Below, in pieces: positions 58,647 through 61,359 of a stretch of DNA of 64,000 nt (positions are counted from its first letter, which is position 1; every line of letters starts with the position of its first letter). The notes under the pieces are model-generated. The model did no database searches and was not told the DNA's origin. It saw only the letters and a program-made list of their open reading frames with translations. This DNA comes from Pseudanabaena sp. PCC 6802 (GTDB taxonomy: Bacteria; Cyanobacteriota; Cyanobacteriia; Pseudanabaenales; Pseudanabaenaceae): the NCBI RefSeq assembly GCF_000332175.1, contig NZ_KB235914.1:3282868-3346867 (forward strand). Reading direction: 5' to 3'. Both the position numbers and the translations under genes were made by a program.

Positions 58647-58676
58647 GATAAAGTACACCTGTAGCGATGCTAATCA

Positions 58677-58798: not shown

Positions 58799-61288
58799 AT
58801 GTCAGGCACTAGATCGAAATTTAACACCAACCTTTTAGACCACTCTGCCGCCGTTAGCCTGTGGCAAGTGTGGCAAAAAACTGCCCAAGCCTGTCCCGAT
58901 ACCCTGGCGCTCCACGATCCCCATGCCAAACCCGAAGTGAAGCTGAGCTATCGCGAAGTTGTAGACCAAATAGCAATGTTTGGGGCAGGGCTGCGCTCGA
59001 TTGGAATTCAATTCGGCGATAAGGTATCGTTAATTGCCGATAACTCGCCGCGCTGGCTGATTGCCGACCAGGGCATCCTGGCGATCGGTGCTGCCAATGC
59101 GACGCGCAGCTCGCAGGCAGAGCGTACCGAATTGCTCTACATCATCGAGCATAGCGATAGTATCGCGTTGGTGGTTGAAGATATCGTCACGCTCAAAAAG
59201 CTCCAGCCTGACGTGCAGAGTTTGCCTTTGAAAACAATTATTTTGCTCTCGGATGAAACTCCGCCAGAGGGAGCTTACAATTTCAAACAAATTCTGGAGC
59301 GAGGTAGCGATTCCCATGGGGATGCGTACCGCCGCGATCTCGGCAACCCTCCCATCGACCGCAATACCTTAGCAACTTTGATCTACACCTCTGGCACCAC
59401 TGGCAAGCCCAAAGGCGTGATGCTGACGCACGGCAATCTCCTCACGCAAGTCGAAGGCGGCAAGGACATGGTGCAACCGTTCCCAGGCGAAGTTGCCCTA
59501 TCAATTTTGCCAACCTGGCACTCCTACGAACGGGCTGGCGAGTACTACCTTCTGTCGCAAGGCATGACGCAGATCTACACCAACCTGCGATCGATCAAAG
59601 CCGACTTAGTGAAATACAAGCCCCATTTCATGCTGGCAGTTCCTCGCCTATGGGAGAGCGTCTACGAAGGCATTTCCAAGAAATTTGCGGCTGAGTCGCC
59701 GTTCAAGCAGGCACTAATTAAATTTTTGCTGGCTGGGAGCCAGAACTACATCAAAGCTCGTCGCATCAAGAACGATCTCAGCCTTGAGGCGGGATCGAAA
59801 CTGGTAGCGACCTTAAGGGCGGCGGTTCTATCACCTGTATATTGGCTTGCCCAAAAAATTCTGTTCGAGAAAATTCGAGAGGCGGTCGGTGGCAGGGTAA
59901 AGTACCTCACCAGTGGTGGTGGTTCTCTCCAGCCTCATATCGATCTGTTCTACGAAATGGCAGGTATAGAAATCATCAACGGCTACGGTCTGACGGAAAC
60001 ATCGCCCATGTTGACGGCGCGCCGACCCCATAGGAATCTACGCGGCACGGCGGGCGTGCCTTTGCGAAATACAGAGATCCAGATCGTCGATCTCGATAGT
60101 CGCATTCCTCTAGAGCAGGGCAAAATTGGTCTGGTGATGGCGCGGGGACCGCAAATTATGCAGGGGTACTACAAAAATCCCGAAGCTACTGCTAAGGCGA
60201 TCGATCCGGACGGCTGGTTCGACACTGGCGATCTGGGCTGGCTGACCGCTAATAACGATCTGATCCTGACCGGACGCGCCAAGGACACCATTGTTTTAAC
60301 TAATGGTGAAAATATCGAACCCCAAGCGATCGAAGATGCCTGTACGCGCAGCCCGTACATCGATCAAATTGTACTTGTCGGTCAGGATCGCAAGCAGTTA
60401 GGAGCCTTAATCGTGGCAAACCTTACCCCCCTCGAAGCTGCAAACATCATTCCACCTGGCGCTCAACTACGGGACGTGCTGGAAATTCTCGCAAGCGACA
60501 AGGTGCAGGCAATCTATCGCGAGGAGCTAAATCGGGAAGTCAAAAGCCGCCCCGGCTACACGATTAACGATCGCATCGGCCCCTTTGCCTTTTTACCAGA
60601 GCCAATTACGATCGAAAATGGTTTAATGACACAAACCTTTAAAATTCGTCGTAATGTGGTAACCGATCGGAGAGTGTTCAGATTTTTGTGTAAATTGAGT
60701 CCTGAAGTACGTATTTACGCTGTTTCAGAGGCTCGATACACAAAATTCCGATCGCACCCACCGATCGCTACCGAGATATTATTGACAAGATGTTTATCTA
60801 AAAGTTACCTAGACAATATGGGTTCTATAGATTTTGCTAATCAGCTTCTCGTTAAGCGAGCAGTGAATGTCAAAGTAATCGTGACACCTCGCTGGAAAGA
60901 CGAAATGCAACAGCAACTTCAGTTCCAGATTTCTCAGGCTGATGGGCAAGTTCAGCAACTAGATATGCAGGGTCAGCGTGCAATCTCGGAAATCGAACGG
61001 CAAAGTATTAAGCCACCTGGGCCTGATGTTGCGCGCGAAATTGAGTCAATTCGCTTGGAAGTCAACAGACGCAAGTCAGAAGTGTTAGAGCAGAAAAACC
61101 AATTATTGCAGCAACTCAATCAGGTGCAGGTATTGGAACTGGAGCAAGAGGTTAACCAGGGGCAGTTAGACAGCTTCTTTCCTGTTGGTAAAGGTGACAA
61201 CTTGATCGCCCTGATGCAAGTTGAAGTAGTACTGCGCGATGGTGTCATCGAAGACATCCGGGCGGGGTTCCCAGCAGAAGCAAATTAG
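58799..61288 (+). CDS. long-chain acyl-CoA synthetase fused in frame to YlqD
   Basis: 829 residues from the ATG at 58799 (CAGGAAACA upstream). Residues 1-622 are an AMP-forming long-chain fatty acid-CoA ligase: P-loop TLIYTSGTTGKPKGVMLTHG, ENGLMTQTFKIRRN at the end. In cyanobacteria this enzyme recycles free fatty acids. The native end YRDIIDKMFI and stop (60799-60801) are still visible in another frame. A 90-bp insertion at 60670-60759 with an 8-bp target duplication shifted the frame (net 98 bp) and joined the enzyme through 50 new residues to the downstream ylqD. It may be a functional fusion or may have lost the last residues of the synthetase. Confidence 0.88.
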   Translation: MSGTRSKFNTNLLDHSAAVSLWQVWQKTAQACPDTLALHDPHAKPEVKLSYREVVDQIAMFGAGLRSIGIQFGDKVSLIADNSPRWLIADQGILAIGAANATRSSQAERTELLYIIEHSDSIALVVEDIVTLKKLQPDVQSLPLKTIILLSDETPPEGAYNFKQILERGSDSHGDAYRRDLGNPPIDRNTLATLIYTSGTTGKPKGVMLTHGNLLTQVEGGKDMVQPFPGEVALSILPTWHSYERAGEYYLLSQGMTQIYTNLRSIKADLVKYKPHFMLAVPRLWESVYEGISKKFAAESPFKQALIKFLLAGSQNYIKARRIKNDLSLEAGSKLVATLRAAVLSPVYWLAQKILFEKIREAVGGRVKYLTSGGGSLQPHIDLFYEMAGIEIINGYGLTETSPMLTARRPHRNLRGTAGVPLRNTEIQIVDLDSRIPLEQGKIGLVMARGPQIMQGYYKNPEATAKAIDPDGWFDTGDLGWLTANNDLILTGRAKDTIVLTNGENIEPQAIEDACTRSPYIDQIVLVGQDRKQLGALIVANLTPLEAANIIPPGAQLRDVLEILASDKVQAIYREELNREVKSRPGYTINDRIGPFAFLPEPITIENGLMTQTFKIRRNVVTDRRVFRFLCKLSPEVRIYAVSEARYTKFRSHPPIATEILLTRCLSKSYLDNMGSIDFANQLLVKRAVNVKVIVTPRWKDEMQQQLQFQISQADGQVQQLDMQGQRAISEIERQSIKPPGPDVAREIESIRLEVNRRKSEVLEQKNQLLQQLNQVQVLELEQEVNQGQLDSFFPVGKGDNLIALMQVEVVLRDGVIEDIRAGFPAEAN
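60670..60759. mobile_element. 90-bp MITE-like insertion with 8-bp target duplication
   Basis: Direct repeats ACCGATCG flank it (60662-60669 and 60760-60767). Its ends are imperfect 23-bp inverted repeats with 17 matches, including the inner TTTTGTGTA in the same place on both sides. It has no coding capacity. Removing the element and one ACCGATCG restores the acyl-CoA synthetase frame to its natural stop. Confidence 0.85.
60818..61288 (+). CDS. ylqD: YlqD family protein
   Basis: 156 residues from ATG 60818, now also the C-terminal part of the fused ORF. Pattern: N-terminal VKRAVNVKVIVTPRWKDEM, a long Gln-rich coiled coil (about 30-110) and a short beta end (FFPVGKGDNLIALMQVEVVL, DGVIEDI). 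YlqD proteins are widespread in Firmicutes and cyanobacteria with no assigned function. The natural gap to the synthetase stop is 16 bp, so both were an operon before fusion. Independent translation from this ATG remains possible. Confidence 0.85.
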   Translation: MGSIDFANQLLVKRAVNVKVIVTPRWKDEMQQQLQFQISQADGQVQQLDMQGQRAISEIERQSIKPPGPDVAREIESIRLEVNRRKSEVLEQKNQLLQQLNQVQVLELEQEVNQGQLDSFFPVGKGDNLIALMQVEVVLRDGVIEDIRAGFPAEAN

Positions 61289-61332: not shown

Positions 61333-61359
61333 TGTAGGGTGGACATTGTCCACCCTACA
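61333..61359. repeat. 27-bp palindrome TGTAGGGTGGACA
   Basis: Perfect 13-bp arms around a single T, 45 bp after the ylqD stop. It could act as a transcription stop or be a dispersed repeat like the one at 30262. Confidence 0.75.

Follow-up and report, generated by a model that had tools for sequence, protein, structure and literature searches.

How did two genes that are separate neighbours in related cyanobacteria come to be read as one in Pseudanabaena sp. PCC 6802? The question is raised by a locus in the window, which is the whole stretch of 64,000 nucleotides analysed here. The ORF reading of the window gives one open frame on the plus strand (58799-61288, 829 aa) that spans both an acyl-activating synthetase and YlqD. 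The initial annotation attributed this frame to the insertion of a small mobile element, a 90-bp MITE.

One reading frame across two genes

Pfam analysis of the 829-aa ORF identified an AMP-binding domain at residues 26-458 (260.8 bits), an AMP-binding C-terminal match at 496-541 and a YlqD domain at 683-821 (148.7 bits). Both domains lie in a single uninterrupted ORF, which is what we mean here by a fusion. The frame extends mechanically upstream to an ATG at 58667. The locus is composed of the following parts.

58799..60669, plus strand: the first 624 of the original 634 residues of a long-chain fatty-acid/acyl-CoA (or acyl-ACP) synthetase (Pfam; relatives; TQTFKIRRN with K615 retained)
60662..60669, plus strand: left target duplication ACCGATCG, 8 bp (direct repeat)
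60670..60759, plus strand: MITE, 90 bp, with 23-nt imperfect inverted ends (nine identical genome copies; six-frame translation; end comparison)
60760..60767, plus strand: right target duplication ACCGATCG, 8 bp (direct repeat, spacing 98)
60768..60801, plus strand: former synthetase 3' end and stop (YRDIIDKMFI, stop), now in another frame (empty-site reconstruction; relatives' tails)
60802..60817, plus strand: former 16-nt intergenic spacer, now coding linker (empty-site reconstruction)
60818..61288, plus strand: ylqD, 156 aa, own ATG kept, now the C-terminal domain of the fused ORF (Pfam YlqD; single PF11068 match in the genome)

The old synthetase stop (TAA, 60799-60801) is present but out of frame with the fused ORF, while the ylqD ATG (60818-60820) is present and in frame with it. 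In these two signals, and in the 8-bp duplications at 60662-60669 and 60760-60767, the DNA reads just as the initial annotation had described it. A 27-nt palindrome (TGTAGGGTGGACATTGTCCACCCTACA) at 61333-61359, 44 nt past the fused ORF, may be a terminator; its pattern is matched at one further site in the genome.

The 90-bp element and its copies

The genome (5.62 Mb, 6 contigs) contains nine letter-identical copies of the 90-bp element, three further full-length copies that are 94-97% identical, one partial copy (83 bp at 89%) and two copies split by a nested IS5-type element. A search for other copies had been proposed as a check on the mobile-element claim, and these copies answer it. Because the nine identical copies each have their own flanks, chance is excluded as the origin of the repeat. 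From the identity of the copies we infer actual transposition, which makes the element family a probably recently active one in this cyanobacterium.

Target duplications were examined in the 12 uninterrupted full copies and the two split ones, the 83-bp partial copy lying outside this test. Exact duplications of 7-9 bp flank ten of the 12; of the remaining two, one shows an 8-bp duplication with a single mismatch and the other lacks a duplication, as do both split copies. The predicted 23-bp inverted ends were found, but they are not perfect, since in the window copy they pair at 17/23 positions. The element is classified as a MITE on the following features: 90 bp without a transposase gene, terminal inverted repeats, a target duplication, many near-identical copies and an autonomous partner with similar ends.

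A search of 38 genomes from the family of this cyanobacterium found the element in the own genome alone; it is absent from the 37 others. Viral contigs gave no match to the exact 66-nt core of the element, a plasmid search did not find it, and a search of Rfam gave no match.

Another copy (97%), with an 8-bp duplication, is located at C5:3282352-3282441, about 430-520 bp to the left of the window start. Two units of 1040 bp (L009:1001-2040 and L010:1001-2040, i.e. C5:100400-101439 and C5:1357343-1358382) were considered as parents of the MITE and rejected; they are the split copies, each interrupted at the same place by an IS5-type element of about 950 bp. They are 99% identical and occupy different sites.

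Reconstruction of the empty site

The empty site was reconstructed by removing the 90-bp element and one 8-bp duplication from the window sequence. The result is a normal 634-aa synthetase that ends in RYRDIIDKMFI and a stop (NVVTDRYRDIIDKMFI, stop), a 16-nt spacer and then a 156-aa YlqD. Relative to the synthetase, ylqD here occupies the +1 frame, which is free of stops for 57 nt upstream of the ylqD ATG. Element and duplication together add 98 nt (90 + 8), which is 2 mod 3, and so the reading frame changes. Only one of the six frames of the element is stop-free (29 codons), and this is the one that the fusion uses; the frame shift and this one open frame together produce the continuous ORF of 829 codons. 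The claim that a 98-bp net shift passes through without a stop codon thus holds.

The fused reading departs from the synthetase after R624 and enters ylqD at M674. A linker of 49 residues (625-673) stands in place of the last 10 synthetase residues; about 30 of its residues come from the element and about 19 from the out-of-frame old 3' end and the spacer. The initial annotation spoke of a replaced synthetase C-terminus. This is correct as far as the linker is concerned, but the loss is limited to these 10 residues.

How readily would such an insertion fuse the pair? By computation, insertion in the plus orientation would do so at 10 of 1875 positions, all of them at most 31 nt from the stop codon, and insertion in the minus orientation at none of 1875. 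When shuffled 90-mers were placed at the insertion site of the window, 267 of 2000 would fuse the genes. On these counts random insertion would seldom fuse the pair, yet a fusion is not improbable once an insertion has occurred at the very 3' end.

The other copies provide a context for this position. Among the 11 remaining uninterrupted full copies, four provide an ORF with its C-terminus (the final codons) and its stop, and hence the element often ends up at the 3' ends of genes. The ORFs concerned encode a WD40 repeat protein (L002), a protein with a weak peptidase M6 match (L005), a Uma2 protein (L007) and a transposase (L011). Among the copies examined for ORF context, the window copy alone is read through into a second gene. 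On the minus strand of L010 (195-1040), the opening codons of a 281-aa ORF lie within a MITE copy, in its right end; the element may thus be a source of gene starts as well.

The locus in related genomes

The synthetase search gave matches in 39 of 39 genomes, the own genome included. The cyanobacterial relatives are about 50-68% identical; the nearest one (68%, locus L032) has the synthetase tail ERYRDLIDQMFTKA and a stop, followed by a separate protein starting MGSIDFENQLL. By identity, the closest named neighbour is a Pseudanabaenaceae MAG, and the named neighbours are cyanobacteria. Variants of the synthetase tail, approximately RYxxxIDxMF, are seen again even among spirochaete homologues, and the 10 residues lost from the fused protein correspond to this recurrent tail.

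Thirty loci were read, including the own locus, which is the only fused one. The 29 loci from other genomes comprise 22 with a stop and a separate ylqD, six without ylqD at the locus and one that runs off its contig. A further set of named loci, 23 from cyanobacteria and 17 from other organisms, overlaps with the 29 by at least one (L096 and L045 are the same contig); none of these 40 is fused and 20 have a separate ylqD. The comparison with relatives lacking the element, which the initial annotation had named as a check, therefore yielded no fusion (0/29 and 0/40). In the loci read, YlqD commonly adjoins this synthetase in cyanobacteria. Open-frame values of 815, 789, 787 and 839 aa were considered as signs of fused relatives and rejected; at all four loci the DNA contains a stop, and ylqD is a gene of its own. 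One alignment (A1) was dropped, its consensus having put synthetase tails into YlqD columns.

A YlqD search of 388 genomes gave a match in 374; among the matches listed, the frames are at most 265 aa long, with the exception of 878 in the own genome. The own genome has one YlqD (PF11068) match, and its other synthetase-like matches, element copies aside, are at most 33% identical among those listed; hence both halves of the fusion appear to be the sole copies in the genome.

Together, the copies, the duplications, the empty site and the unfused relatives bear out the central claim that a 90-bp MITE put the synthetase and ylqD into one frame. At the DNA level, the fusion is young and MITE-made.

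A candidate source of transposase

The same genome contains a 1351-bp IS encoding a 417-aa transposase of the IS256 family (NF033543, 428 bits; Pfam Transposase_mut, 395 bits). There are ten identical full-length copies, an eleventh with a 1-nt deletion, and fragments. A PF00872 search of the genome returned 16 matches; ten are the intact transposases, one is weak (44.6 bits) and the others are pieces of this IS. The three IS copies that were read have 7-bp duplications. The ends of the element resemble those of the IS, with 22/23 identical positions at the left and 18/23 at the right, while the interiors are not shared. A 14-nt end motif (CNGAWTTTTGTGTA) occurs 55 times, versus once for the reversed control. 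In the other genomes of the family, 16 of 37 have only partial matches to the IS (64-77% identical among the matches listed).

Because the element and the IS share end sequences, mobilisation in trans is suggested, and the 1351-bp IS is the likely source of transposase for the 90-bp element. Since the right end matches at just 18/23 positions, the element may derive from a different member of the IS256 family. In L019 (494-1050), a truncated IS256-type copy (533 bp) is directly followed by another left end of that IS in the same direction.

The predicted fused protein

The assignment to the synthetase class is based on membership in the AMP-binding family and on close cyanobacterial relatives; the protein may be a cyanobacterial acyl-ACP synthetase of the Aas/slr1609 type. 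K615, in the segment TQTFKIRR, is retained and occupies an invariant column in the seven-row alignment; presumably it is the catalytic lysine of the A10 type. A PDB sequence search with window 58799-60700, which includes 10 residues read into the element, found acyl-ligase relatives only. To our knowledge, YlqD is a family of unknown function, and our search for literature on YlqD together with cyanobacteria found none.

An AlphaFold2 model of the fused protein, built from seven sequences, is of modest quality (mean pLDDT 65, pTM 0.50). In it, the YlqD part consists of two long helices with strands, the helices mostly at pLDDT 68-86. Residues 615-684 are below 50, i.e. the linker is not predicted with confidence.

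In Synechocystis, the acyl-ACP synthetase gene slr1609 has been deleted (PMC3366867); for this reason a loss of the synthetase may be tolerable, if the gene in the window is an orthologue.

Probable origin and expected expression of the fusion

We consider it highly probable that a MITE insertion fused the two neighbours, that an IS256-family transposase acted in trans, and that the event is recent and tolerated. The non-autonomous 90-bp element would have been mobilised most likely by the transposase of the 1351-bp IS and would have taken ACCGATCG as its target, ten codons short of the synthetase stop. The 8-bp duplication and the element would thereby have added 98 nt and brought ylqD into the frame of the synthetase. 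Ribosomes starting at the synthetase would then make a synthetase-linker-YlqD protein, and one joined protein should now be made where relatives make two. As the ylqD ATG is kept, some free YlqD may still be started there. The fusion would be a recent chance event that survived because of its location at the extreme 3' end of the synthetase gene. Mobilisation in trans, translation of the fusion and its tolerance are the parts of this account that we infer.

A different account agrees that the frame is continuous, but has the cell make mainly separate products: YlqD would be started at its own ATG and a hairpin in the mRNA would be cut or would slow the ribosomes, with the fusion a minor or degraded product and the change neutral or mildly harmful. 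We regard this as possible, if doubtful. It is favoured by the intact ylqD ATG at 60818 and by the RNA of the element, which is predicted to form a hairpin of -32.7 kcal/mol versus a mean of -15.9 for shuffled sequences (z -5.9); this strong folding makes RNA cleavage a live rival, and RNase III has been proposed to process a comparable MITE at the 3' end of enhC in Coxiella (PMC5896051). However, a strong Shine-Dalgarno-like stretch was not seen by eye before 60818, and because no stop interrupts the fused frame, at least some of the product should be full-length.

A stronger version of the fusion account is that the MITE has just made a working two-domain enzyme, with YlqD tethered to the synthetase, and that this single-copy fusion is kept as at least the equal of two separate proteins. 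We think this unlikely; if true, the rise of a fused gene out of an operon pair would be directly observable here, in one transposition step.

An error in assembly or base calling could also open the frame, with the real genes still in different frames. There is a short A run at the former stop and spacer, and a one-base error in the 16-nt spacer would break the fused frame. But such an error would need to sit in this spacer or in the last codons, the element is letter-identical in nine places, and its removal restores the synthetase end, the stop and ylqD; we judge this explanation very improbable. A later arrival of the MITE in an already old or ancestral fusion is hardly credible, because none of the relatives (0/29 and 0/40) is fused and, without the element, a stop and a frame difference separate the genes.

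Gene fusions are usually inferred long afterwards; in this case the element, the duplication, the old stop and the old start are all legible, and the one-step path from operon neighbours to a fusion is therefore directly testable. The locus also draws attention to YlqD, a common neighbour of this synthetase in cyanobacteria.

Comparison with known systems

In-frame fusions of MITEs are established (PMC2229807, PMC10969869, PMC5896051, PMC4853749). The joining of two neighbouring genes by a MITE is a less documented variant of these; in the portions of the open-licence literature available to us, we found no report of a MITE that joins two neighbouring conserved genes.

The element resembles IS256-family ISs in its ends and its 7-9-bp duplications, and an intact IS256/Mutator transposase is present in the same genome; it differs in that it has no transposase and shares the ends alone. 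In Coxiella, QMITE2 at the 3' end of enhC alters the C-terminus of EnhC (PMC5896051). As at our locus, a MITE at a gene 3' end changes a C-terminus; there, however, a stop comes right after the element and no second gene is joined. The ERIC, Correia/NEMIS and YAPL MITEs form long hairpin RNA and have open frames that are joined with host ORFs, in some cases through a shifted reading frame (PMC2229807). They share with the window element the MITE-host ORF fusion and the hairpin RNA, whereas the available text of that source describes no fusion of two conserved operon neighbours. Finally, the Rickettsia palindromic elements (RPE) are small palindromic mobile elements with an open frame that is translated within host proteins (PMC2229807, PMC10969869). 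The likeness lies in a small mobile element with an open frame inside a host protein gene; the difference is that an RPE adds a peptide to one protein, while the element in the window unites two genes by a frame shift that bypasses a stop.
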